Source: Treponema sp. (lineage in GTDB: Bacteria > Spirochaetota > Spirochaetia > Treponematales > Breznakiellaceae). From it: a DNA stretch of 34,198 bases. The notes beneath the pieces were generated by a model. It was not told the DNA's origin and did not search any database. It saw only the letters and a list, made by a program, of their open reading frames with translations. Positions 8,404-30,528 of this stretch are shown here, piece after piece. Position 1 is the first letter of the stretch; every line of letters begins with the position of its first letter. Position numbers and translations under genes: made by a program. The stretch is taken from positions 1-34,198 of the forward strand of contig WQXQ01000013.1 in the NCBI GenBank assembly GCA_009784775.1. The letters are read 5' to 3'.

Positions 8404-9039
8404 ATGTTTATTGATAGTAAAGTATGCGTTAGAGTGTGTATTTGGGCATTTTTAGTATTAAATACAATTTATTCTGCTTCTGCTCAGCAAATCAATAGTA
8501 GGTTTGTCGTTGTACCTGCAGGATACAGGATAATAGGAAGTACAAACCCTTCTGATGAAAGCCTTTTTAATAATACTCTGGAATCCATTCTTTCCAGCCC
8601 AGAGTTTGCAAGTTTTATGGAGCTTGCAGCTATTAGACCGATGGACCTGAGTCGTATCAGAACTGAAGTAGGAAGAAACGATTTGCAGTTGGTACAAAAA
8701 TTTGATTATACGGTATTTGGAGATATAACATTAAATTCAAATCGATATGAAATTAGAACTGTATTGATAGACAAAACATCAAGAAATATTCAATGGTATG
8801 CTAATGATGTGTCGGATTTTCGATCTGTAATTGAAGATCATGGTAAAAAAATCGCTGCTTTTTTAAAGGAAATGCAGTTGGATGTAACTATGGAATTGAT
8901 ACTGGACGCTGAGCGGGAAAGTCGTTTTGAAACAGCGCTTAGGAGACTTCGTATATATAAATTTAAATATGGCGATTCAATTATGCTTCAAGATATTGAA
9001 GAACGGTTGACGCAGCGATTGGGGAAATGGAAACATTAA
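8404..9039 (+). CDS. Secreted protein of unknown function, possible CsgG/LpoB-like fold
   Basis: The 211-residue product starts with a Sec signal peptide ending at ASA-QQ (about residue 27). ATG 8404 is preceded by a clear GGGGAGGG ribosome site. The middle (FDYTVFGDITLNSNRYEIRT, then a segment with a conserved Asp and Lys) resembles the strand pattern of CsgG/FlgO/LpoB-type periplasmic domains. That resemblance is weak and inferred. The C-terminal part is a charged helix. The stop overlaps the next gene by 13 bases in another frame. The next gene has no signal peptide but looks like a beta-barrel, so the two may be one broken or frameshifted protein. Confidence 0.75.
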   Translation: MFIDSKVCVRVCIWAFLVLNTIYSASAQQINSRFVVVPAGYRIIGSTNPSDESLFNNTLESILSSPEFASFMELAAIRPMDLSRIRTEVGRNDLQLVQKFDYTVFGDITLNSNRYEIRTVLIDKTSRNIQWYANDVSDFRSVIEDHGKKIAAFLKEMQLDVTMELILDAERESRFETALRRLRIYKFKYGDSIMLQDIEERLTQRLGKWKH

Positions 9040-9818
9040 ATACCAGGATTATGGATAACTTAAGCCGGGCAGATGCACTTATTGATTCGGCATTGACATC
9101 TTCTTCGGCTAGGGATAGAGAGAGATTTTACCGACAAAGTTCTAACTTACTTCGCAATGCACTGGAAATTATGGATCAGGACAAATTGGATAGCCTACGG
9201 CATAACATTGAAAATATTAAATCTAAAATAAAAAGATATGAAGATAGGCATATCCGTGAATTTAATACAGGGGGTATTGAAGTTGCTTATCTTGAACCGA
9301 TTATATTGTATAATCTTCTTGGTCCGCAAATAAAGGATTATTATCCTAATATATGCGGCTTATCGCTTACCTGGTTTATTTCTTCCAATTCTGGAAGAAA
9401 TAAGCCTGTGTTTAACCAACCTTATATAAAATTTGGTTATTTAGGTTTAAATAATACTGCCATTCAAAAAGCGTTATATATAGATGAAGCAGTACTCTAT
9501 GGGTTATTTCTTTCTGTAGGTTATCAATTTCATTTGTGGCCTACAAGAACCAGTTTTTTATTTCCGTTTCTTCATCTGGGTGCAGGGTATAATCATTTTA
9601 TTGAATATGCGAAAGATAGTACCGCAGAGGCTTATCTTAATTTTGGACAACTTCTTTATGAAGGAGGTCTTGGTTTGAAATTGCATATTCCAAAAGCTAA
9701 CCTGATATTGGCAGCTGTTGCAGGTGCAGACATGGGGATCGGTGAACCTATTTCTTTTTCTGTTAACTGTTCGTTTGGACTAACATATTTATTCTACGGA
9801 AAAACAAAAATATACTAA
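9027..9818 (+). CDS. Putative outer-membrane beta-barrel protein with N-terminal coiled coil
   Basis: The 263-residue ORF has a helical charged N-terminus (about 1-80) followed by alternating aromatic/hydrophobic strands (YIKFGYLGL, YGLFLSVGYQFHLW, FPFLHLGAGYNHF, GGLGLKLHI) and a terminal FGLTYLFYG strand, as in outer-membrane barrels. It lacks any signal peptide, which is odd for a barrel. ATG 9027 has GGGG only two bases upstream, a poor ribosome site; ATG 9051 is an alternative. The frame is open only back to 9000. The simplest reading is that it is the second half of the 8404 protein, reached by a -1 shift or separated by a mutation or sequencing error. Confidence 0.7.
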   Translation: METLNTRIMDNLSRADALIDSALTSSSARDRERFYRQSSNLLRNALEIMDQDKLDSLRHNIENIKSKIKRYEDRHIREFNTGGIEVAYLEPIILYNLLGPQIKDYYPNICGLSLTWFISSNSGRNKPVFNQPYIKFGYLGLNNTAIQKALYIDEAVLYGLFLSVGYQFHLWPTRTSFLFPFLHLGAGYNHFIEYAKDSTAEAYLNFGQLLYEGGLGLKLHIPKANLILAAVAGADMGIGEPISFSVNCSFGLTYLFYGKTKIY

Positions 9819-11647: not shown

Positions 11648-11887
11648 TTATCTCATTTGAGTAACTCGATTACCATAAGTATCATAAATCTCGTTACCCC
11701 TCATCTGATAGACACGACTACCGTAAGTATCATAAATATCATTACCTCTGATCTGATATTTACGATTACCATAAGTATCATAAATTTCGTCACCCCTGAT
11801 TTGAAACATACGATTGCCAGAGGCATCATAAATTTCATTACCCCTCATTTGAAAACCGCGGTTTCCGTAGTTATCATAGCCATCCAT
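11648..11887 (-). CDS. Small YDxYGNR pentarepeat protein
   Basis: The 79-residue product is made almost wholly of five 16-residue units with consensus YDTYGNRxxQMRGNEI (48-nt units), the last one shortened. ATG 11887 has a perfect AGGAGG eight bases upstream, which strongly supports translation. There is no signal peptide or membrane segment. Regular polar repeats with YD-x-x-GN turns suggest a short beta-meander or solenoid, similar in style to repeats in some bacterial surface and cytoskeletal-type proteins. Function is unknown. It is last in the minus-strand repeat-protein group, 15 bases after an ankyrin gene, so cotranscription is likely. Confidence 0.8.
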   Translation of the reverse strand: MDGYDNYGNRGFQMRGNEIYDASGNRMFQIRGDEIYDTYGNRKYQIRGNDIYDTYGSRVYQMRGNEIYDTYGNRVTQMR

Positions 11888-20617: not shown

Positions 20618-22051
20618 CTAGTGCCGGGGAGCGTATTTTTTGATAAATTCCTGTTTAACCCGCAGCAGATCTTCCCGGGGCAATTCCATTAAAACCTGCC
20701 AGCCCAGATCCAGGGTGCGGCCTATATCACGGTTTTCGGTTTCACCCTGGTTCAGGAAAACGTGCTCGAACCGTTCGCCGAATTTCAGATAACGCTTGTC
20801 GCTGGCGGAAAGTTCTTCCTCGCCGATAATTGACGACAGGTTACGGACCTGTTTTACCTTTGAATAAGCAGCAAAAAGCTGGCTGGAAACATCTTTGTGG
20901 TCTTCCCGTGTCATGCCGGGGCCGATGCCGTCCTTCATCAGACGGGAAAGGCTGGGCAGGCCAGCCACCGGCGGATAAATGCCCCGCTGGGAAAGCTCGC
21001 GGTCAAGGACAATCTGGCCTTCGGTAATGTAGCCGGAAAGGTCGGGAATGGGGTGGCTGATGTCATCGTTGGGCATGGACAGAATCGGCAATTGGGTGAT
21101 GGATCCGGAAGAACCTTTGATTTTTCCCGCCCGTTCGTACAGCGAAGCCAGGTCCGAGTACAGGTAACCGGGATACCCTTTCCGGCTGGGCACTTCCCCC
21201 CGAATCGAGGAAACTTCCCGCAGGGCTTCGCAGTAGTTGGTCATGTCGGTCATCACCACCAGAACGTGCATATTTTTTTCATAGGCCAGATATTCCGCAG
21301 CGGTAAGGGCGCACCGGGGGGTTACCAGCCGTTCAAGCGAGGGGGCATCGGCAAGCGAGAGAAACACGACCACATTGGACAGTACGCCGGAATGTTCGAA
21401 GTCATCAAGGAAAAAGCGGGCAACATCGTACTTTACCCCCATGGCGCAAAATACAATGACAAAGCGGTCGGAGACCGCCCGGTCGCCATCCGCACGGTCT
21501 GTGACCGCACGATCGGAGGCTGCCGACCCGGTATCCAGGATTTTTGCCTGCCGGATGATTTGAGCGGCAAGCCGGTTATGGGGAAGGCCGCTGCCGGAAA
21601 AAATCGGGAGTTTTTGCCCGCGGATAAGGGTGTTCATGCCGTCAATGGCAGAAATGCCTGTTTGGATAAAGTCGCGGGGATATATGCGGGCATAGGGATT
21701 AATCGGCAGGCCGTTCACATCAAGCATGGTTGAAGAGAAAATGTCGCCGTAACCGTCAATCGGCTCGCCCAGGCCGTTGAAAATGCGCCCCAACAGACCG
21801 GGGCCAACCCGCAATTCCATGGGTTTACCCAGAAATTCAACCCGTGAGTCATCCGCGGAAAGGCCGGTGCTGCTGCCAAAAACCTGAATCGCAGCCCAAT
21901 CCTCGCTTATGTCGATTACGCGGCCCAGCCGCCTGCCTTCATTGCGGTCGTAGACGGCCACTACCTCATTGTAAAAGACATCACGGCTGCGGGCAGTAAT
22001 AACCACCGGCCCTTCTATGCGGGTAAGCCCTTTGTACTCAATGCCCCTCAT
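20618..22051 (-). CDS. atpB: V-type ATPase/ATP synthase subunit B, with a repeat-derived insertion
   Basis: The 477-residue non-catalytic B subunit of a V/A-type rotary ATPase is clear throughout: [16 protein letters not shown], a degenerate P-loop region [58 protein letters not shown] and [18 protein letters not shown]. It would sit in the V1 hexamer with subunit A. No other V-ATPase gene is in the window, although these genes usually cluster (A, B, D, I, K). About 20 residues after RQAKILDTG are an insertion of DRAVS-like pentads encoded by 15-nt palindromic repeats (21465-21524). The start ATG 22051 lies about 8 bases from a good -10 box. Confidence 0.97.
21465..21524. repeat. Four tandem 15-nt palindromic units inside the V-ATPase B gene
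   Basis: The plus-strand consensus is CGGTCNNNGACCGCM, a 5-bp inverted repeat per unit, in units at 21465, 21480, 21495 and 21510; the fourth is most diverged. In protein they give D-R-A-V-S/T pentads between the P-loop region and the FCAMGVKYD block. Confidence 0.9.
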
Positions 22052-22059
22052 AAATAGGT

Positions 22060-22088
22060 ATAATACCTCATTTTTTGGCTCTATTCAA
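22060..22088 (-). promoter_or_regulatory. Promoter of the V-ATPase B gene
   Basis: The minus strand reads TTGAAT (22083-22088), a 17-base spacer and TATTAT (22060-22065). The -10 lies within a perfect inverted repeat AGGTAT-A-ATACCT (22056-22068), a possible operator. The transcript would start within 1-3 bases of ATG 22051. Confidence 0.65.
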
Positions 22089-22104
22089 TGATTTGTACTA
22101 TACT
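22075..22104 (+). promoter_or_regulatory. Putative promoter of the AAA ATPase gene
   Basis: TTGGCT (22075-22080), an 18-base spacer and TATACT (22099-22104). The predicted start is at ATG 22111 itself. It overlaps the divergent promoter of the V-ATPase B gene. Confidence 0.5.
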
Positions 22105-22110
22105 TATAGT

Positions 22111-23409
22111 ATGGTGCAGAGAATCGAATACCTGAAACGCCTGGAAAAATGGCAGGAAAAACAGCAGGTAAAAGTAATAAGCGGAGTGAGGGGCTGCGGT
22201 AAAACAACCCTGCTTGCCCTGTATATCGATCAGCTCAAACGTTCAGGCGTGGAAGATGGGCAGATTATGTATATCAGCATGGATGATCCGGAAAGTGAAT
22301 CCCTGCTGCATTATCAAGGTTTGTACAGTTATATAAAAAAGCGGCTGTGCAAAGAAAAATGCACATACATTTTTATTGATGAAATGCAAAAGTGCGCACA
22401 GTATGAAAAGGCAATTGACGGGCTTTTATTAAAGAATCAGGTTAATGTATTTGTTGCTGTTTCAGGCAGCTATTGTTTTACTGATATACCGCATATTGAA
22501 ATTAAGATTTTGCCATTGTCTTTTGCCGAACACTTGATTTTTGCGAAAGTACGGAATAGAAGTCCGCAAATTCCGGCAATTGCGCCGCAAAAACCTGAAC
22601 CGCTCCGTATGGAGCCGCTCCGAATGGAGCGCAGACTCCCCCGGCAAAAAGCGCAAGTGGAAAAATATTTGCAGCGGGAAGCATTTCACCATTACCTGAG
22701 TTTTGGCGGATTTCCGTTTGCGGCGACTCTGGGCGGCGATGCAGGTTTGGTACGCCAATGCGTTGAAGGAATCTATCACACGATTTTAATCAAGGATGTT
22801 GCGCGGCAGGCGGGAATACACGATATTCCCCTGCTGGAGCATATTGCACGCGTAATGAGTCATTCCATTGGTTTGGGTCTCAACGCAAAAAAAATCAGCG
22901 CAGAGATTAGCGTAAAAGGGAAAAAAATTACCGCTGACACGGTGGAAACGTATATGCAGGCCCTGGTCAATGCCTGTGTGTTTTATTTCATTGGGCGGTT
23001 TGATATTAAGATCGGAAAGCGCCTGAAAACCCTTGGCAAATATTACATTGCCGATACCGGCATACAGAATTTGCTGCTGGAAAAGGTACCAGACCTGAAT
23101 GGCCAGCTTGAAAACATTGTTTGCATGGAGCTATTACGCCGGGGTTTTCAGGTGTATATTGGCAAATACGGCAACGATGAGATTAGTTTTGTGGCTGTTG
23201 AATCATCAGATGATTCGGCGGATAATATTAGTTATTTTCAGGTTATGGCTGCCGTTCGGGATAATCCTGCGTATGCCGGAAAATTTTCCGCGCTGGAACA
23301 AATACCAGGCAATCACCCTAAATACATTATAAGTCTGGATCAGACCCCATTTCGTTCACATCACAACGGCATTACCCAGCGGAATTTAATTGAATGGCTG
23401 ATTCCATAA
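22111..23409 (+). CDS. AAA ATPase of the DUF4143 family
   Basis: The 432-residue protein has Walker A GVRGCGKT (25-32), Walker B YIFIDEMQ (86-93) and a sensor-like VAVSGSY. A helical middle (YLSFGGFPFA, then IYHTILIKDVARQAG) is followed by a DUF4143 C-terminal domain (LGKYYIADTGIQNLLL, LENIVCMELLRRGFQVYIGKYGNDEISFVAVE). In relatives the last motif is usually EIDFV with a nuclease-fold Asp; here it is EISFV, so the Asp is lost. ATG 22111 is chosen over a TTG at 22075 because the promoter overlaps the TTG. An EPLRM-EPLRM insertion lies at residues ~163-172. Function of the family is uncertain; mobile or accessory roles are common. Confidence 0.9.
   Translation: MVQRIEYLKRLEKWQEKQQVKVISGVRGCGKTTLLALYIDQLKRSGVEDGQIMYISMDDPESESLLHYQGLYSYIKKRLCKEKCTYIFIDEMQKCAQYEKAIDGLLLKNQVNVFVAVSGSYCFTDIPHIEIKILPLSFAEHLIFAKVRNRSPQIPAIAPQKPEPLRMEPLRMERRLPRQKAQVEKYLQREAFHHYLSFGGFPFAATLGGDAGLVRQCVEGIYHTILIKDVARQAGIHDIPLLEHIARVMSHSIGLGLNAKKISAEISVKGKKITADTVETYMQALVNACVFYFIGRFDIKIGKRLKTLGKYYIADTGIQNLLLEKVPDLNGQLENIVCMELLRRGFQVYIGKYGNDEISFVAVESSDDSADNISYFQVMAAVRDNPAYAGKFSALEQIPGNHPKYIISLDQTPFRSHHNGITQRNLIEWLIP
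22597..22626. repeat. Two tandem 15-nt palindromic units inside the AAA ATPase gene
   Basis: The units are GAACCGCTCCGTATG and GAGCCGCTCCGAATG. Each spans a 5-6 bp inverted repeat with a four-base centre (GCTCC-GTAT-GGAGC and CGCTCC-GAAT-GGAGCG). They encode EPLRM twice, in frame. Confidence 0.85.
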
Positions 23410-23455
23410 TTGACATCATTGTGTACAGCAGTACAATGTAATCAGGGGGTGTCAG

Positions 23456-23980
23456 ATGGCAATAGCGGAACAGGCAGGAGACCTGCGCCTTGAGCAAATT
23501 GACGGTATTGAATATGCAATGAATTCGCCGGGGTATAAGCATCAAATGGCGGCAGGACGAATTCTTGCCCAGTTGAATGCTCAATTATCCAATCCTCAAT
23601 ACGTAATAAAAGCGGCGCCCTTTGATGTGTTTCCCCTGTATGACCAAGGTGATAAAAAAACGCTGGTTCAGCCCGATATTTTCATTGTCTGTAATTGTTC
23701 AAAGCTGCACAATAATCGTTACAATGGCGCGCCGCAGTTTATCATTGAAATTTTGTCTTCAAACCGATCGCATGGCATGGTTACCAAATTGAATCTGTAT
23801 AAACAGGCTGGCGTTACTGAGTATTGGATTATTGATCCGGAAGATCACATAATAATTGCTTTGGAACTTATTGCCAGAGAGTATTTTCATCGTGCATACA
23901 GCGGAAAAAGCACCGTTTCGTTAGCATCTGTTCCCGGTTGTGCCGTGGACTTCAAGAAAGTTTTTGAACCGGCAATGTGA
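23456..23980 (+). CDS. Uma2-family (DUF820) PD-(D/E)XK-type protein
   Basis: The 174-residue protein shows the Uma2 pattern: KHQMAAGRILAQLNAQL, then QPDIFIV with D74, PQFIIEILS with E98, and K111 in the TKLNLYKQAGVTEYWIIDP block. These residues form the restriction-endonuclease-like core. Length and order fit the family. AGGGGG precedes ATG 23456 by about eight bases. The biological role of Uma2 proteins is not settled. It lies between the AAA/DUF4143 gene and a sensor kinase on the same strand, about 47 bases after the former, so cotranscription is plausible. Confidence 0.9.
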   Translation: MAIAEQAGDLRLEQIDGIEYAMNSPGYKHQMAAGRILAQLNAQLSNPQYVIKAAPFDVFPLYDQGDKKTLVQPDIFIVCNCSKLHNNRYNGAPQFIIEILSSNRSHGMVTKLNLYKQAGVTEYWIIDPEDHIIIALELIAREYFHRAYSGKSTVSLASVPGCAVDFKKVFEPAM

Positions 23981-23996
23981 CAAGGGTAGGGATGGT

Positions 23997-26900
23997 ATGA
24001 TCGCAAATAAAAAATGTATAGCGGCGTTAATATTCTGCGTGTGCATGGTTGCCGGTTTTGCAGGCTGTTTCCGGCAGCCGCAACAACAGTTTGATACTAT
24101 ACATACAATAACATCGTATCGTGAAATTCCTGGGGTAACGGATGCGGAGATTGAAGCGATAGAGGCGCTTAAAGATTCCGGGCGGATTTTTTCCTACGGG
24201 AGCATTCTTTCGCCTGAAGCGTTTATTATCCGGGACGGTAGTTACACCGGTTTTACCGCCTTGTTTTGTGAACTGCTGACAAAAATTATTGGCATTCCAT
24301 TTGTTATGCAGACGGATGACTGGGAGACCCTTAAATCCGGCATTGACAGCGGAATAATTGATTTTACCGGAGAATTGACCCCGACACTGGAGCGCAGGGA
24401 CATCTATTTTATGAGTCATTCCATTGCGGAACGCTCCCTTGCTATTTTCACTTATGGCCGACCCGATAGATTTATGGCAGAAAGTGATATAAATGGTCTT
24501 AAAATTGGGTTTTACACCGGAACAATAACCGCACAATCTATTTTGGGTGTGTACCCTGGGCTGAATTTTGAAGTGGTTAATCTGCTGAGCAATCAGGAAA
24601 TTGCCGAAAGTCTGATGTCCGGCAAGATAGATGCGTTCATCACCGATAACATGGCGATATTTGAATTTAAAGATTATCCTTCCATTCAGTCCAAAACTTT
24701 TTTCCCGTTGATATACACGCCGGTGTCCATGACCACTGCAAACCCGGAACTTGAGCCGATTATTTCAGTTGTTGATAAATACATAGAGGCCGGCGGCATC
24801 GACACATTGTATGAGCTTTACAAAACAGGCAAGCATGAATACGCAAAGTACGAGCTTGGCAGATCGTTCACCGAAGAGGAGGCTGCGTACATAGCCGGGC
24901 TGGCAGCCAGCGGTGCGAAGGTACCTATTGCATTGGAGCATGATCATTATCCAATCTGTTTTTATAATGAAAAAGATGATGAGTTTCAGGGCATCGTACC
25001 GGATATGTTACGTGAAATTAGTCTGTTAACCGGCATAGAGTTTCATAATGTAACGGATAAAAACACGCCCTTCTATAAGATACTTGAGATGCTTGACTCA
25101 GGCGAGGTTGCTTTTGTATCGGAATTAATCCTTACTCCGGAACGGAAAGACAGATATTTATGGTCTGAATGTTACTACACTTCGCATTATGCGCTGATAT
25201 CAAAAATTAGTTATCCTCGCCTGGAAATACCCCAGGTTGTGCGGGCCAGAGTAGGCGTTAGCCGCGGTACCGCCTACGAAGAAATGTATAAATCCTGGTT
25301 TCCGGATTATCACAACCTTGTGTACTATAACTCAATATTTGACGCAATGTTTGCGCTTGAGAGAAATGAAATTGATCTGGTCATGGCATCCGAAAATGCG
25401 CTGCTGACTATGGTAAATTATTATGAAAACCCCGGGTATATTCTGAATATCCGGTTCAATGTGCTGGAAGAGTCATACTTTGGATTTAATATCCACGAAG
25501 AAATGCTGTGTTCGATTATCAAAAAAACGCAAAAATATGTTGATAATGGAAAAATCGTTCATTATTGGACAAGCCGTGTATTTGATTATTTAAGAAAACA
25601 TATTGAAGAACGGTCGCTGATTATGGCTGTGTCCGCCGGCTTGCTGCTGTTGTTGTTGTTGCTGCTTGGCATCCTGTTTATAAAAAACAACAAAACACAG
25701 AAGGCGGTACACGAAGCAAATGAACGTTTCAGAATTATGTTGGATACTACGCCGCTTATTTGTAACCTGTGGAACAAGGAATACAAGGTATTTGACTGTA
25801 ATGATGCGGCGCCCAAACTCTTTCATTTAGACAAACAAACCTATATTAAAAGGTTTTTGGAACTTGCGCCCGAGCGTCAGCCTGACGGGCAGCTTACGGC
25901 TGACAAAGCCTGTAAGCTGCTGGATAGAGCTTTTGCAGAGGGTACCTGCGCTTTTGAATGGATGAATCAGGGGTTGGATGGCTCGCTTATTCCTATGGAG
26001 GTTACGCTTACCCGCGTTGTATACGAAGGCAATTACGTGGTTGTCGGTTATGGGCGGGATCTTCGCGAGCAAAAGCGCATGACGGCGGAGATCCGCGATA
26101 CTGCCGCACGGCTGGAAATTGCGGTTGATGAAGCGCGCAGCGCCAATAAAGCAAAAAGCAATTTTCTTGCGCAGATGAGCCACGAAATACGCACGCCATT
26201 AAATGCCATTATTGGTATGACTAATATAGGGAAATCAGCTGACACTACGGAACGTATGTTATATTGCCTTGACAAAGTTGAAAATGCATCCAGGCACCTT
26301 ATGGGCGTAATCAACGATATTCTGGATATGACTAAAATCGAAGCAAATAAACTGGAGCTTTCGTTCACCGATTTTATTTTTGAAAAAATGATTGAGCAGG
26401 TTGTAAACGTTATCGGTTTCCGTGTGAGCGAGAAACAACAGAATCTTGAGATTAATATTGATAAAGCAATTCCCTCAAGCCTGTTTGGGGATGATCAGCG
26501 GCTGGCGCAGGTCATTACCAATCTGTTGGGCAATGCGGTAAAATTCACGCCCGAACAGGGATTAATCAGTCTTGACGCGCAGCTTTTGGAGAAAATAGAC
26601 GGCGTCTGTACGATACAGTTCATCATAAAGGATACGGGAATTGGCATAAAAGCCGAACAGCAAGTGCATCTTTTTGAACCGTTTCATCAGGCCGAGTCCA
26701 GCACCACGCGTAAATATGGCGGCACGGGTTTGGGGCTTTCAATTTCAAAGAACATCATCGAATTAATGGGCGGCGCTATATGGATTGAATCCGAACCCGG
26801 TCATGGTTCCTCATTTACCTTTACGGTCAGGATGGCGCAGAGTGCAGCGGGAAGCAACGCCGCAAACCGGCCTGAAATGGACGAAGGACAACCGAATGTG

Positions 26901-27293
26901 GACGGCCTGTTTGCAGGATGCCGCATCCTGTTGGCTGAAGATGTAGAGATTAACCGGGAAATCGTAATGGCGCTGCTGGAACCAACCTGCGTGACAATCG
27001 ACTGCGCCGAGAATGGAGCGCGGGCTGTCCGTATGTTCCGCCAGTCGCCGGAACTGTACGATCTAATTTTGATGGACGTACAAATGCCCGAAATGGACGG
27101 CTACGAAGCAACCCGCACAATTCGTATGTTGGATGCCCCGAATGCTAAAACCGTGCCAATAGTCGCCATGACCGCAAATGTATTCCGTGAAGATGTGGAA
27201 AGGTGTCTGGAAGCCGGTATGAACGACCACATTGGAAAGCCAATCAACTATGATGAAGTAATGGAAAAGCTGCGTATGTATATACGAAGATAA
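23997..27293 (+). CDS. Hybrid sensor histidine kinase with two periplasmic solute-binding domains (BvgS/EvgS-like)
   Basis: The 1,098-residue protein begins with a signal that resembles a lipobox (FAGC, Cys 24). Two type-3 solute-binding (venus flytrap) domains follow (~50-285 and ~290-535), then a Leu-rich membrane helix (~541-563). A PAS domain (~575-695), a HisKA with H729 in MSHEIRTPLNAIIGM, a HATPase with the IKDTGIGI and GGTGLGLSISK boxes, and a receiver with D1027 in LILMDVQMPEMDG complete it. It should sense a small periplasmic ligand and phosphorylate its own receiver. There is no separate response regulator or HPt domain nearby, so the output partner is elsewhere. ATG 23997 has AGGGTAGGG upstream. 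It overlaps nothing and follows the Uma2 gene by 16 bases. Confidence 0.95.
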   Translation: MIANKKCIAALIFCVCMVAGFAGCFRQPQQQFDTIHTITSYREIPGVTDAEIEAIEALKDSGRIFSYGSILSPEAFIIRDGSYTGFTALFCELLTKIIGIPFVMQTDDWETLKSGIDSGIIDFTGELTPTLERRDIYFMSHSIAERSLAIFTYGRPDRFMAESDINGLKIGFYTGTITAQSILGVYPGLNFEVVNLLSNQEIAESLMSGKIDAFITDNMAIFEFKDYPSIQSKTFFPLIYTPVSMTTANPELEPIISVVDKYIEAGGIDTLYELYKTGKHEYAKYELGRSFTEEEAAYIAGLAASGAKVPIALEHDHYPICFYNEKDDEFQGIVPDMLREISLLTGIEFHNVTDKNTPFYKILEMLDSGEVAFVSELILTPERKDRYLWSECYYTSHYALISKISYPRLEIPQVVRARVGVSRGTAYEEMYKSWFPDYHNLVYYNSIFDAMFALERNEIDLVMASENALLTMVNYYENPGYILNIRFNVLEESYFGFNIHEEMLCSIIKKTQKYVDNGKIVHYWTSRVFDYLRKHIEERSLIMAVSAGLLLLLLLLLGILFIKNNKTQKAVHEANERFRIMLDTTPLICNLWNKEYKVFDCNDAAPKLFHLDKQTYIKRFLELAPERQPDGQLTADKACKLLDRAFAEGTCAFEWMNQGLDGSLIPMEVTLTRVVYEGNYVVVGYGRDLREQKRMTAEIRDTAARLEIAVDEARSANKAKSNFLAQMSHEIRTPLNAIIGMTNIGKSADTTERMLYCLDKVENASRHLMGVINDILDMTKIEANKLELSFTDFIFEKMIEQVVNVIGFRVSEKQQNLEINIDKAIPSSLFGDDQRLAQVITNLLGNAVKFTPEQGLISLDAQLLEKIDGVCTIQFIIKDTGIGIKAEQQVHLFEPFHQAESSTTRKYGGTGLGLSISKNIIELMGGAIWIESEPGHGSSFTFTVRMAQSAAGSNAANRPEMDEGQPNVDGLFAGCRILLAEDVEINREIVMALLEPTCVTIDCAENGARAVRMFRQSPELYDLILMDVQMPEMDGYEATRTIRMLDAPNAKTVPIVAMTANVFREDVERCLEAGMNDHIGKPINYDEVMEKLRMYIRR

Positions 27294-27302
27294 TTCTTAT
27301 AA

Positions 27303-28388
27303 TTACTTTAGCCACACATTGTCTCGTAGCAACTTTATATTTTTCTTTTCTATCATTGCCGCAAGTTGCTTTTCTGTAGGTAAAATTGTTTTATACTTTG
27401 ATGCAAAAATTTGCTTGCTCTCATTTAATACGGAATATTTAACCACTGTTTCATCTTTCTCTGTACATAAAATAATCCCGAGAGTCGGGTTATCATCTGC
27501 TCCGCGTTTTAAAGCATCAAACATACGGACATATAATTCCATTTGTCCAACATCTTGAGGACTAAGGCTAGTGGTTTTTAAATCTATAATGACAAAGCAT
27601 TTTAATAGATAGTTATAAAAAACAAGGTCAATGTAATAGTGAGAAGTTTCTGTACTAATTCGGAATTGACGAGCAATAAAAGAAAAACCCTTGCCTAATT
27701 CCAGCATAAAGCTTTGTAAATTATTTATTATGGCTGTTTCTAATTCGGTTTCTTTTCCCTGTATATCTTCAGGAATATCAAGAAATTCCAATATATACGG
27801 GTCTTTAATAAAATCTAATATTTTTTCCTTTTTGCTTGTTGTTTTTACAACAGCAGAAACTGCCTGAGACTTCTTTTTCTGCGTAGAAAGCAGTCTGCGG
27901 TAATAACCGCTTCTGATATTTCGCTCAAGTAATTTTACACCCCAATTTTGTTCGCTGGTTTCTGTGATATAATAATCTCTTTCGGCATCATCTTCGATCC
28001 GCATAATCGCACACCAATGCGACCATGACAGAATTTCAAGATTCGCTAGACGGCGTCTAGCGAATTCAATACCATTGGGAAAACGAAGGTAAAATTGTCT
28101 GATATTCTTAATATTCGCTTCAGAAAAACCTTTGCCTAAAGTATCTGTCAAGTAACGGGACAAATTGACAATAAGGTATTCGCCATAATCGGCACGAATT
28201 TTTCCTTTTTGCTCATGTTCTATTATACGTTTGCCAATCTGCCAATTTGCTTGAACCATCACTGTATTAACAGCTTTATAAGCCGTTTCTCTTGCTTTGT
28301 GTAAAATCGTGGCAATTTCTGCAAAGAATTGTTTATCTTGTTTTGTTATAACAATATTGTTTTTTATTAGAGTTTTATTTTTTGTCAT
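27303..28388 (-). CDS. DUF1016/YhcG-type PD-(D/E)XK nuclease-fold protein
   Basis: The 361-residue protein has the N-terminal DUF1016 helical domain (QANWQIGKRIIEHEQ, YGEYLIVNLSRYLTDTLGKGFSEANIKNIRQFYLRFP, LSWSHW). The C-terminal nuclease-like core has D254 (YYIDLVFYN), D269 and K271 (FVIIDLKT). These proteins are linked to restriction systems and mobile islands and are thought to act on DNA; the exact role is unproven. The stretch GIEFARRRLANLE just before LSWSHW is not usual for the family and coincides with a perfect 12-bp palindrome (28041-28065). The gene is AT-rich compared with its neighbours and starts 10 bases after the CofE-like stop. Confidence 0.92.
   Translation of the reverse strand: MTKNKTLIKNNIVITKQDKQFFAEIATILHKARETAYKAVNTVMVQANWQIGKRIIEHEQKGKIRADYGEYLIVNLSRYLTDTLGKGFSEANIKNIRQFYLRFPNGIEFARRRLANLEILSWSHWCAIMRIEDDAERDYYITETSEQNWGVKLLERNIRSGYYRRLLSTQKKKSQAVSAVVKTTSKKEKILDFIKDPYILEFLDIPEDIQGKETELETAIINNLQSFMLELGKGFSFIARQFRISTETSHYYIDLVFYNYLLKCFVIIDLKTTSLSPQDVGQMELYVRMFDALKRGADDNPTLGIILCTEKDETVVKYSVLNESKQIFASKYKTILPTEKQLAAMIEKKNIKLLRDNVWLK
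28041..28065. repeat. 25-base palindrome inside the DUF1016 gene
   Basis: ATTCGCTAGACG and CGTCTAGCGAAT flank a single central base, giving a perfect 12-bp inverted repeat. It encodes the FARRRLAN part of the coding strand, in frame. Confidence 0.95.
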
Positions 28389-28398
28389 GATTATGCCA

Positions 28399-29598
28399 TT
28401 ACTTTATCGCGTAATTGTCAAAGTATCCCTGAATGAGCACAATGGGCGTGCCTTTATCGCCGGAGCCGCTGACCAGGTCGCAGAGGCTGCCCAGCAGATC
28501 GGTCAATTGCCGCGGTGTGGTTCCTTCGGATGCCATTTTGCCCATTTGGTCGCGGCCGGCTTTTGCCTGTATGGCTTGCTCAATGGCTTTGCGCGCTGCG
28601 TCACCGGAAAGATTGGCAAAATCGTTATCGGCAAGAAATTTCAGTTTGAGTTCGTTAGGTGTTCCTGACAAACCTGATGTGTATGCGGGAGCTATCACCG
28701 GATCGGCCAGTTCCCAAATGCCGCCAACCGGGTCCTTAAAGCCGCCGTCACCGTAAACCAGAACTTCTACCGTTTTGCCGGTCAGCTCGCGGAGCGCTTG
28801 CTGCATCTTTTGCACAAATGTTTCACAGTCCCGCGGGAATAATTTTACCCGCTCTTCGGTTGCCTTGTTTGAACCAAGCAGTCCATACCGTTCGTTATAC
28901 CCGCTGTCGTTAAACCCGGAAAGATGAACCGGCTTTGTCAGCAGTTCATCAATACCAATAACTTTTTTTGCACCGGCGCCGGTCAGCGCTCTTTTCGTTC
29001 TTGTTCTGGTGTGAATATCGGCGGCAATTACCTGATCTGTGTATTCCAGTATGCGCTTTGGATCAGCGCAGAGTATAATGTCGATATTGTCGCTGAGTGA
29101 TTTATAGTAAGAAACATAATCAATGCCGGTGAACCGGTGTTTTATTTCATTGCCAAACAGACGGCGGTATTCAGTTTCGCTTAAACAGTCCGAGTAGGGG
29201 TTGATCTTTTTGTCATCCACATCTTCCCAACTGATAAGCTGATTGCCGACTTCATCCGCCGGATAGCTCAACTGAACGGTTACTTTTTCGGCGCCGCGGG
29301 CAATGCCCTTCAGGAGCATCGCAAAACGGTTCCGGCTGAGAATGGGAAACACCACACCGATATGGCCGCCGCCAAACGTAGCGCGTACGTCAGCGGCAAT
29401 GTGGTCAACCGAGGCGTAATTACCCTGTGAACGCGCCACCACCGCCTCGGTAATACCGAGAATATCACCATCATTAACATGGATATTTTCGTTTTCCACC
29501 GCGTCTTTTACCGTCTGACAGACAACGGCAACCAGATCATCGGATTCCCGAATGATCGGTGTTCGCAAACCTAAGGCCCTCGTTCCAATAACTCTCAT
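28399..29598 (-). CDS. Coenzyme F420:L-glutamate ligase-like (CofE-family) protein
   Basis: The 399-residue protein opens like CofE (MRVIGTRALGLRTPIIRESDDLVAVV, then NDGDILGITEAVVARSQGN). It is much longer than archaeal CofE (about 250 residues), with an added middle region (ISWEDVDDKKINPYSD, IDIILCADP) and a C-terminal part (VLVYGDGGFKDPVGGIWELADPVIAPAY). Such long homologues occur in bacteria not known to make F420, so the substrate is unknown; a gamma-glutamyl ligase activity on another cofactor is one possibility. It is divergent from uppP, with 54 bases between. Confidence 0.82.
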   Translation of the reverse strand: MRVIGTRALGLRTPIIRESDDLVAVVCQTVKDAVENENIHVNDGDILGITEAVVARSQGNYASVDHIAADVRATFGGGHIGVVFPILSRNRFAMLLKGIARGAEKVTVQLSYPADEVGNQLISWEDVDDKKINPYSDCLSETEYRRLFGNEIKHRFTGIDYVSYYKSLSDNIDIILCADPKRILEYTDQVIAADIHTRTRTKRALTGAGAKKVIGIDELLTKPVHLSGFNDSGYNERYGLLGSNKATEERVKLFPRDCETFVQKMQQALRELTGKTVEVLVYGDGGFKDPVGGIWELADPVIAPAYTSGLSGTPNELKLKFLADNDFANLSGDAARKAIEQAIQAKAGRDQMGKMASEGTTPRQLTDLLGSLCDLVSGSGDKGTPIVLIQGYFDNYAIK

Positions 29599-29652
29599 AG
29601 GCTTAGTCTAGCAATAAAAGGCAAAAAAATCTAGTATTAAACAGGAGTATAT

Positions 29653-30528
29653 ATGCATATTATTGAGGCGATTCTGCTGGGTGTAATTCAGGGTTTGACG
29701 GAGTTTTTACCGGTTTCCAGTTCGGGACATTTGGTTTTGTTTCAAAAAATTTTTGGTATTTCAGAACCGGCGTTGTTTTTTGACACTATGCTCCACGTGG
29801 GGACGCTGGTTGCAGTATTTGCGGTACTGTGGAAAGATATTTGGGCAATTCTGCGAAAACTCAATCAGCCGCTTACGCTGTATCTGATCATTGCGACCGT
29901 TCCAACGGTTATTTTTGCCCTGATGTTCAGAAAGCCGATTGAGCAAGCCTTTGAAACAGGACAATTTTTGGGCTTTGCGTTTCTGGCAACCTCGGCGCTG
30001 CTGGTAATGGCTGAGTTGCTGGCGAAACGGGCTGCCCAAAAAAGGCTGCCTACTGGTGGTGGGCTGCCCACCAATGGCGGGCTTGATAAAATGAATTGGC
30101 TGGACTCGTTGGTTATTGGTTTGATGCAAGCCATTGCGGTTATCCCCGGCATATCCCGTTCCGGGGCAACATTGTCCGGGGCGCTTTCCCGCGGACTGAA
30201 CCGGGACTTTGCCGCCCGCTTTTCATTTATGCTGTCAATCCCGGCAATACTGGGTGCGGCGGTGTTCCACATTAAAGATTTGGTGAAGGGCCGTGAGGCC
30301 GATATTGCGGCAACGGCTGAAACGACTAACGCGCTTGGTACAAGCGCAGGCATCGGCGCGGCGGCAATCATTGCAGGAACGATAACCGCCGCCATTGTGG
30401 GCTTTTTTGCCATACGGCTGATGTTAAAAATTGTCAGAGAAAAATCACTGTGGGGCTTTGCCATTTACACCGGGGCTTTGGGCCTGTTGGTGTTGGCAGA
30501 TCAATTTATTTTGGGGATTGTATTTTAG
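29653..30528 (+). CDS. uppP: Undecaprenyl-diphosphate phosphatase
   Basis: This 291-residue integral membrane enzyme recycles the undecaprenyl carrier for peptidoglycan and glycan synthesis. Both catalytic motifs are present: E17FLPVSSSGH26, and PGISRSGAT beginning at P165. Seven to eight hydrophobic helices are visible. AGGAG lies about eight bases before ATG 29653. A GLPTGG-GLPTNGG stretch at residues ~131-144, just before MNWLDSLVIG, is an insertion relative to familiar homologues. It is encoded by two 18-nt repeats with a perfect palindrome between them (30058-30072). Confidence 0.96.
   Translation: MHIIEAILLGVIQGLTEFLPVSSSGHLVLFQKIFGISEPALFFDTMLHVGTLVAVFAVLWKDIWAILRKLNQPLTLYLIIATVPTVIFALMFRKPIEQAFETGQFLGFAFLATSALLVMAELLAKRAAQKRLPTGGGLPTNGGLDKMNWLDSLVIGLMQAIAVIPGISRSGATLSGALSRGLNRDFAARFSFMLSIPAILGAAVFHIKDLVKGREADIAATAETTNALGTSAGIGAAAIIAGTITAAIVGFFAIRLMLKIVREKSLWGFAIYTGALGLLVLADQFILGIVF
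30043..30084. repeat. Tandem 18-nt units with palindromes inside uppP
   Basis: Two 18-base units (30043-30060, 30061-30078) and a partial third (30079-30084) read R/G-L-P-T-G/N-G. GGTGGGC-T-GCCCACC (30058-30072) is a perfect 7-bp inverted repeat. A second imperfect one, with arms GCCCACCA and TGGCGGGC, follows at 30066-30082. Confidence 0.85.

Follow-up and report, generated by a model that had tools for sequence, protein, structure and literature searches.

Gene-specific palindromes inside DUF1016/YhcG, RhuM, ORF6N and Bro-N genes: candidate targets carried by the genes themselves

Introduction

Why would a gene carry a perfect 25-bp palindrome within its coding sequence, at a place where its relatives in other genera carry palindromes made of other letters? 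The question is raised by a DUF1016/YhcG gene in the window, as we call the whole 34,198-nt stretch analyzed here, which corresponds to contig C13 in a Treponema sp. genome of 2.40 Mb and 153 contigs. By their V-ATPase B sequences, its neighbours are mostly metagenome-assembled genomes labelled Treponema sp. or Spirochaetaceae, plus Breznakiella homolactica, and we take these closest relatives to be termite-gut lineages. A preliminary description of the window had singled out short palindromic stretches in four genes, those for V-ATPase B, an AAA ATPase, uppP (BacA) and the DUF1016 protein, and had proposed that a single process creates frame-preserving palindromic units in unrelated genes. 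To follow this up we sampled 20 stretches of 20 kb from the window's genome, together with loci of relatives, phage contigs and E. coli. All four palindromic sequences are present, but they are not one phenomenon. The DUF1016 palindrome is best explained, on the comparisons given below, as one member of a class of in-gene dyads that also occurs in RhuM, ORF6N and Bro-N/DinD genes. Such a dyad may well be the encoded protein's own putative target, carried in its gene, a reading to which we give about half of our belief.

Results

The dyad in the window's DUF1016/YhcG gene

The gene (27303..28388, minus strand, 361 aa) matches Pfam PF17761 and PF06250 above their curated cut-offs (136.8 against 32.8 bits and 192 against 32.5 bits, respectively) as well as the PADLOC candidate-defence family PDC-S02 (PDLC04807, E 5.2e-132). 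On the minus strand, 27894..28319 encodes the DUF1016_N domain (residues 24–165) and 27363..27815 the YhcG_C PD-(D/E)XK nuclease domain (residues 192–342). Within the DUF1016_N codons, at 28041..28065, lies the dyad ATTCGCTAGACGCCGTCTAGCGAAT (gene-strand reading), a perfect palindrome of 12+1+12 bp that codes for EFARRRLAN. It has no second match in the 2.4-Mb genome when up to 3 mismatches are allowed, and one dispersed repeat is thereby ruled out. On this point the preliminary description was right: what it saw as common to the four stretches was architecture and not sequence.

The dyad across the DUF1016 family

At the same gene position, 25 of 29 DUF1016 homologues have a stem of at least 8 bp, mostly in other letters, as illustrated by ATTCTCTACACACTGTGTAGAGAAT, AATTTGGCACACAGCGTGTGCCAAATT, AATTGCGTCCGCAGTGCGGACGCAATT and AATTGGGCAGCAGCCTGCTGCCCAATT. 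These same-place palindromes occur in homologues from other genera, in phage contigs and in E. coli K-12 yhcG. Our full DUF1016 set, 116 distinct open reading frames (ORFs) and fragments in all, drew on relatives, on 148 genomes of the class, on 46 viral-collection loci and on E. coli; the viral loci came from an alignment query, single-protein queries against that collection having given no DUF1016 match. For the count of in-gene stems, the 31 sequences shorter than 300 aa were left out. The longest in-gene stem measures at least 11 bp in 48 of the remaining 85 genes, where codon shuffling expects 0.2, and 63 of the 85 have a stem of at least 8 bp no more than 45 codons upstream of the LSWSH motif.

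Choice by eye was avoided by means of windows placed by the protein motif alone, which 88 of the 116 sequences provided (the other 28 lack the motif), giving 87 distinct windows. At the predicted centre 66% of positions form Watson-Crick pairs, against 20–34% at 17 other centres, and each of pairs 1–12 is seen as three to four base-pair types. When taken as 83 distinct 25-nt windows, the paired fraction is 0.646 and falls to 0.348 +/- 0.013 once the 3' partners are shuffled, with 0 of 1000 shuffles reaching the observed value; removal of near-identical windows (65 left) gives 0.588 against 0.320. The symmetry drops past pair 13, which is formed in 48 of the 87 windows, compared with 27 for pair 14 and 17 for pair 15. 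Where 8 or more of the 12 pairs form, the sense strand shows G-T mismatches no more often than A-C mismatches (14 versus 19), which argues for symmetry at the level of DNA and not of an RNA stem that would tolerate wobble.

The letters of the dyad are also conserved beyond the protein that they encode. Over 72 DUF1016 pairs (35 genes, 50–85% amino acid identity), codons for the same residue have the same third base in 330 of 401 cases inside the dyad and in 6640 of 13743 outside, and three genes (L192, L195 and L223) share an identical 25-mer dyad at 73–74% protein identity. The dyad of another homologue, L203, was searched for in 39 genomes and found solely in DUF1016 genes of two of them, G007 and G020. 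DUF1016 paralogues of one genome, G000, carry unrelated dyads, as do those of G007. Separately, two DUF1016 genes on viral contigs (L276 and L282) have a second strong palindrome, TCGAGGCGGCGCGCAAGCGCGCCGCCTCGA, about 75–80 codons upstream of the usual one.

E. coli yhcG

In E. coli K-12, yhcG holds three copies of the dyad, with 11, 11 and 10 of 12 pairs, one of which has a 15-bp perfect stem. Copy number varies among strains: two other alleles that we studied closely have one copy (O157, frameshifted) and two copies. All copies have ATT...AAT ends and a CAGAC...GTCTG core in common. The triplet between ends and core differs from copy to copy, yet it is symmetric or nearly so in each. A megablast survey found a yhcG match in 4417 of 5426 genomes, and in 10 of 60 spread rows the third palindrome (378–410) is where the match breaks off, at query base 406. 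One such allele (L253:4001-4500) is cut at the right edge of the third palindrome, where it adjoins a transposase remnant.

RhuM, ORF6N and Bro-N genes, and control families

RhuM and ORF6N genes were reached as neighbours of DUF1016 genes. A first pattern took 22 of 30 RhuM and 15 of 30 ORF6N loci, and regathering by similarity yielded 38 and 29 sequences, respectively. A column scan of the alignments made one position stand out in each family: one of 1552 scanned in RhuM (0.872 paired, z score 9.9, at least 10 of 11 pairs in 23 of 32 sequences) and one of 596 in ORF6N (0.922 paired, z score 9.0, at least 10 of 11 pairs in 25 of 28). In both, the symmetry fades past pair 12–14, and in windows pairing at 8 or more of 12 positions the sense strand has 6 G-U versus 6 A-C mismatches for RhuM and 3 versus 7 for ORF6N. 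The same scan of the V-ATPase B, uppP and AAA families gave a maximum z score of 3.8 and, at the best positions, no sequence with at least 10 of 11 pairs.

Bro-N ORFs were obtained from 29 of 30 loci. Stems of at least 11 bp occur in 12 of the 29 and in 0 after shuffling; one of the 12 (L390) looks like DUF1016 by its peptide, and two long-stem Bro-N ORFs look DinD-like. E. coli K-12 dinD itself has an imperfect dyad with 10 of 12 pairs. Fic, used as a control family from the same genome set, was recovered from 28 of 30 loci and has one such stem among the 28 ORFs, compared with 0.15 expected. The window's own genome also contains a Bro-N gene with a palindrome of its own, CAACTGGTTAGTAATACTAACCAGTTG (L044:743-769).

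Over all fetched loci (2.1 Mb), a stem of at least 12 bp is present in 59 of 1898 ORFs, and in 2 after one shuffle. By peptide reading the 59 comprise 35 DUF1016, 8 RhuM, 7 ORF6N, 1 Bro-N and 8 others, a tally that includes alleles and overlapping gene copies and whose shares are biased, since many loci were fetched for these very families.

DUF1016_N as a possible ParB-type domain

The assignment of YhcG as a nuclease has been published, in a paper that describes the N-terminal domain as about 200 aa long and mainly helical, with no confident match (PMC1189080). In an AlphaFold model of the window protein (mean predicted local distance difference test score 75.8, predicted template modelling score 0.46), the palindrome-coded residues form a short helix, 106–113, directly after helix 90–102. 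The codons of these two predicted helices occupy 28050..28121 on the minus strand, the second helix being the dyad-coded one. We read them as part of a ParB-like helix-turn-helix (HTH), which for the window protein is inferred from the model, from Foldseek and from HTH_ParB matches in homologues. Foldseek matched the window protein to NucS/EndoMS, Can2, MspJI and MunI, and these matches probably belong to the C-terminus, an assignment that is our own as the table gives no aligned ranges. Weaker matches were to ParB and Noc chains, including Noc bound to its DNA site (probability 0.94–0.99, E 0.04–0.09).

With E up to 10 allowed, 9 of 29 homologues match the Pfam family HTH_ParB (PF17762); the best E is 9.7e-5, and one of these homologues (L199, 22.9 bits) lies above the curated cut-off of 22.6. 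The position of the match was followed in 8 homologues: in 7 its start falls inside the palindrome-coded residues or a little beyond them, and in the remaining one it starts further upstream and covers them. The N-terminal CTP-binding domain of ParB is absent among the 22 Pfam families that match the 29 DUF1016 members at E up to 10, and a comparison of DUF1016 with the sequences of solved structures matched nothing relevant. Altogether, the model and these matches suggest that DUF1016_N is a ParB-type HTH, which can be regarded as partly shown.

Variable loops and microrepeats

In the other three genes the extra residues that had been reported between conserved blocks do occur, as length-variable loops in the homologue alignments. 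For DUF1016 this claim failed: its homologues have this protein segment too, in most cases with another palindrome in the DNA.

In the V-ATPase B gene, 15-nt tandem units (21465..21518, minus strand; period 15, 3.6 copies, 66% match) lie in a loop bounded by an 11-residue block and F.IVF. The loop measures 24–114 nt across 65 distinct loop sequences, the window's genome included and some loci having been skipped by the loop pattern, and it measures 81 nt in the window, largely as 15-nt units; the extra residues are therefore real, and the loop is variable clade-wide. Among the 32 loops of at least 33 nt, stems of at least 8 bp occur in 2, against 0.24 expected (2% of shuffles reach this), and stems of at least 6 bp in 6, against 3.69 expected, which is not significant. 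One loop, in L060, reads CGTATTCTGTCC-GCCGGT-GGACAGAATACG; its 12-bp arm repeats, in inverted orientation, the codons with which the loop begins and is likely a template-switch insertion or scar. The stems of at least 8 bp and this inverted copy leave a residual hint in favour of the process proposed in the preliminary description.

The AAA_14/DUF4143 ATPase gene has two 15-nt units (22600..22630, plus strand; period 15, 2.1 copies, 93% match) in a variable linker that is shorter or without the residues in 28 of 29 other aligned rows; in the closest homologue (L162, 61% identity) the linker is equally long and differs in sequence. The uppP gene has a 17-nt palindrome, TGGTGGGCTGCCCACCA, a perfect 8+1+8 (30057..30073, plus strand), in a variable loop; of the 29 other rows, 28 have a shorter loop and one has a loop of the same length. 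Stems of 5 bp, as formed by the V-ATPase B and AAA units, are matched by about 8% of shuffled units, and the 8-bp stem of the uppP unit is matched by 1%. We consider none of the three to belong with the dyads.

In 373 kb of coding sequence from the window's genome, stems of at least 8 bp are somewhat commoner than after codon shuffling (72 against 49.3) and stems of at least 10 bp clearly so (12 against 1.7). Tandem arrays with a score of at least 50 number 25 against 1.8 after codon shuffling, and the period is divisible by 3 in 23 of the 25. Clade neighbours have 34 such arrays against 6.0 shuffled, and rumen and other Treponema, in a smaller sample of 157 kb, have 0 against 1.8. An internal stem of at least 5 bp is found in 7 of the 25 consensus units, compared with 2.3 for shuffled units. 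Comparison with shuffled sequence thus bears out an abundance of in-frame tandem microrepeats, but their units are just mildly palindromic. V-ATPase B, AAA and uppP look like variable loops, the first two of which hold in-frame microrepeats of the kind common in this genome. The recurrence sensed in the preliminary description is real in part, and lies in the conserved in-gene dyad of DNA-binding gene families, the window's DUF1016 gene among them.

Other repeats were seen along the way. The window has a 12-bp perfect palindrome, TTATTTCTTCCAATTCTGGAAGAAATAA, at 9376–9403 within an ORF of 263 aa (9027–9818), and a 48-nt tandem repeat of 4.3 copies at 11652–11856, mostly in a plus-strand open frame of 91 codons. 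Two tandem 25-nt palindromes that resemble repetitive extragenic palindromic (REP) elements, CAAAAAGGTGTCAGTCACCTTTTTG, lie in frame in a 475-codon ORF (L036:17997-18057). Clustered long palindromes with stems of 11–20 bp stand outside long ORFs in the window's genome (L033:10918-11066, L045:12316-12401 and L050:12927-13067). Finally, a ribonuclease III gene has a 14-bp perfect palindrome in the stretch GFRFKSLGLLNLSFMHRS (L041:3860-3890), which could be a template-switch conversion.

Discussion

What might the dyad be for? The position of the site is fixed in DUF1016, RhuM and ORF6N, its arms covary, its symmetry is lost past about 13 pairs and its mismatches have no RNA-wobble bias. Third-base conservation is raised in DUF1016, the two DUF1016 dyads tested are unique to their site, and control families lack such dyads. 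The symmetry is almost certainly upheld at the DNA level, by selection or by conversion. Since the letters are private and inherited with the gene lineage, the gene's own product is the simplest candidate for their reader, although whether it does read them is, to our mind, finely balanced.

In the model that we propose, DUF1016/YhcG, RhuM, ORF6N and Bro-N/DinD genes would each contain a symmetric site of about 25–27 bp inside the codons of the N-terminal region, with arms of 12–13 bp and usually one central base, in which the letters differ from gene to gene and both arms change together. Each protein, probably as a dimer, would bind the dyad of its own gene, in duplex form or extruded as a hairpin. 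A site carried along in this way could then provide negative autoregulation that is independent of the promoter, acting as a roadblock or as a loading point, and that moves with the gene; nuclease and antirepressor genes, which travel from genome to genome, might profit from it. Autoregulation seems the likeliest use of such a target, but that it is the dyad's purpose is in itself rather doubtful. A broader idea, which we offer with reserve, is that these mobile DNA-binding and nuclease families are self-addressed genes: each may encode a private target in the codons of its DNA-binding domain, so that target and reader would be inherited together and paired changes would shift the address.

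Several observations weigh against self-recognition. No perfect stem of at least 8 bp is found near the site in 22 of the 85 DUF1016 genes, 12 of which still pair at 10 or more of 13 positions. A blind column scan of the DUF1016 alignment missed the site (best z score 4.1, elsewhere), so that the motif anchor was needed; we attribute the miss to gaps that interrupt this segment of the alignment. The third-base conservation is in part expected from symmetry combined with protein constraint, which slows change, and it is weaker than proof of sequence-specific reading. Near the gene the core rarely recurs (in 3 of 42 DUF1016 loci, compared with 7 of 374 control searches; of the three copies, two are inside the ORF and one is just upstream), and on the same counts we rejected a general promoter operator. 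Coevolution between core letters and recognition-helix residues was suggestive in one scoring but not significant in the controlled one, in which the helix supplied 3 of the 20 top columns (P 0.07). The ParB and Noc structural matches are weak, and a Pfam search of the window protein at E up to 10 gave no match to HTH_ParB. Finally, the triplets of the E. coli yhcG copies, variable yet symmetric, would not be predicted if a plain dimer read the dyad; they hint at a role, besides the letters, for shape (an extruded hairpin) or for a copying process. Hairpin recognition or concerted evolution of the arms may be alternatives to a duplex self-target.

Concerted evolution without function would mean that template switching during replication restores a near-palindrome in a tolerant segment, and that the arms coevolve unread. 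The yhcG triplets would be explained in this way, the L060 loop gives a clear example of a local inverted copy, the ribonuclease III palindrome may be another, and raised third-base conservation would likewise follow from symmetry plus protein constraint. Template switching has moreover been proposed for coding palindromes elsewhere (PMC6649704). We still judge it unlikely, because the dyads are confined to particular DNA-binding families, are fixed in position and limited in size in three of them and are absent in control families, and because identical letters persist at 73–74% protein identity. If, on the other hand, the dyad is read, it could serve another factor, such as a host protein, a cruciform-reading nuclease or transposase, or domain-swapping recombination of mobile genes. 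The yhcG alleles broken at the palindrome edge beside a transposase remnant, and the varying copy number among strains, would fit this. A host factor, however, would favour one sequence per genome, whereas dyads are unrelated between the DUF1016 paralogues within G000 and within G007, and the letters follow the gene lineage, which makes another factor improbable.

A hairpin in the mRNA that controls translation or decay of the dyad genes seems very improbable: stems of 8–17 bp could fold in RNA, but G-U is not favoured over A-C in DUF1016, RhuM or ORF6N, and one-base centres make poor RNA loops. We give the least credence of all to the view that all four loci of the window arose by a single process that puts palindromic units, in frame, into unrelated genes. 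The excess of in-frame microrepeats, some of them palindromic inside, and the weak palindrome excess in V-ATPase B loops speak for it, but it is largely contradicted by a DUF1016 site that is old, fixed in position and family-wide, with covarying arms, and by the V-ATPase B, uppP and AAA families, which have no palindromic position and whose short stems are individually near chance.

YhcG, RhuM, ORF6N and Bro-N genes are found across many bacteria and phages; to each of them the dyad offers a concrete, gene-specific candidate target. If the proteins bind it, several orphan families would acquire a target, and a promoter-free form of regulation would travel with the mobile gene. A self-addressed protein would recognize only copies of its own gene and might work as a copy sensor, a self-repressor or a device for exclusion of its own kind. 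If the proteins do not bind it, the dyads are a striking case of near-perfect palindromes kept inside coding sequence. Among the matches listed, titles and abstracts of open-licence articles in PubMed Central (PMC) hold no description of palindromes in DUF1016, RhuM, ORF6N or Bro-N genes.

Known systems share parts of this picture. Rickettsia palindromic elements are likewise palindromic DNA within ORFs that leaves the reading unbroken, but they are described as selfish elements of about 100–150 nt inserted at many places (PMC4316617), while the dyad is about 25 bp long, occupies one place per gene family and has no dispersed copies (a single place in 2.4 Mb for the window dyad). REP elements are short palindromes too, of 20–40 bp (PMC3733652), but they are high-copy and mostly intergenic repeats, unlike the single in-gene dyad of DUF1016. 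The mitochondria of Nematomorpha have perfect inverted repeats in coding sequence, both arms encoding conserved protein; according to that report these lie in many genes, with arms of 15–142 bp and about half of the positions species-specific (PMC6649704), whereas the dyad is fixed, limited in size and found in DNA-binding families. PARCEL (palindromic amphipathic repeat coding elements) are also coding DNA with dyad symmetry, tied to mobile elements in some taxa, but they are described as 25-residue tandem repeats, many in membrane-targeted proteins (PMC2996958), rather than as a site in a DNA-binding domain.

With ParB and Noc the likeness lies in the HTH, which DUF1016_N appears to resemble. 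The parS site is one conserved sequence, used at several places in the genome. In DUF1016, by contrast, the letters are peculiar to each gene, and both dyads that were searched for turned up in DUF1016 genes alone; the C-terminus is a nuclease, and the N-terminal domain of ParB is not among the Pfam matches of the 29 members. ParB binds palindromic parS (PMC12207404), and one such site, parS-359, sits within the B. subtilis parB gene (spo0J) (PMC4442127). There, as we propose for the DUF1016 dyad on the strength of inferred self-binding, the palindromic site of an HTH protein lies inside the protein's own gene.

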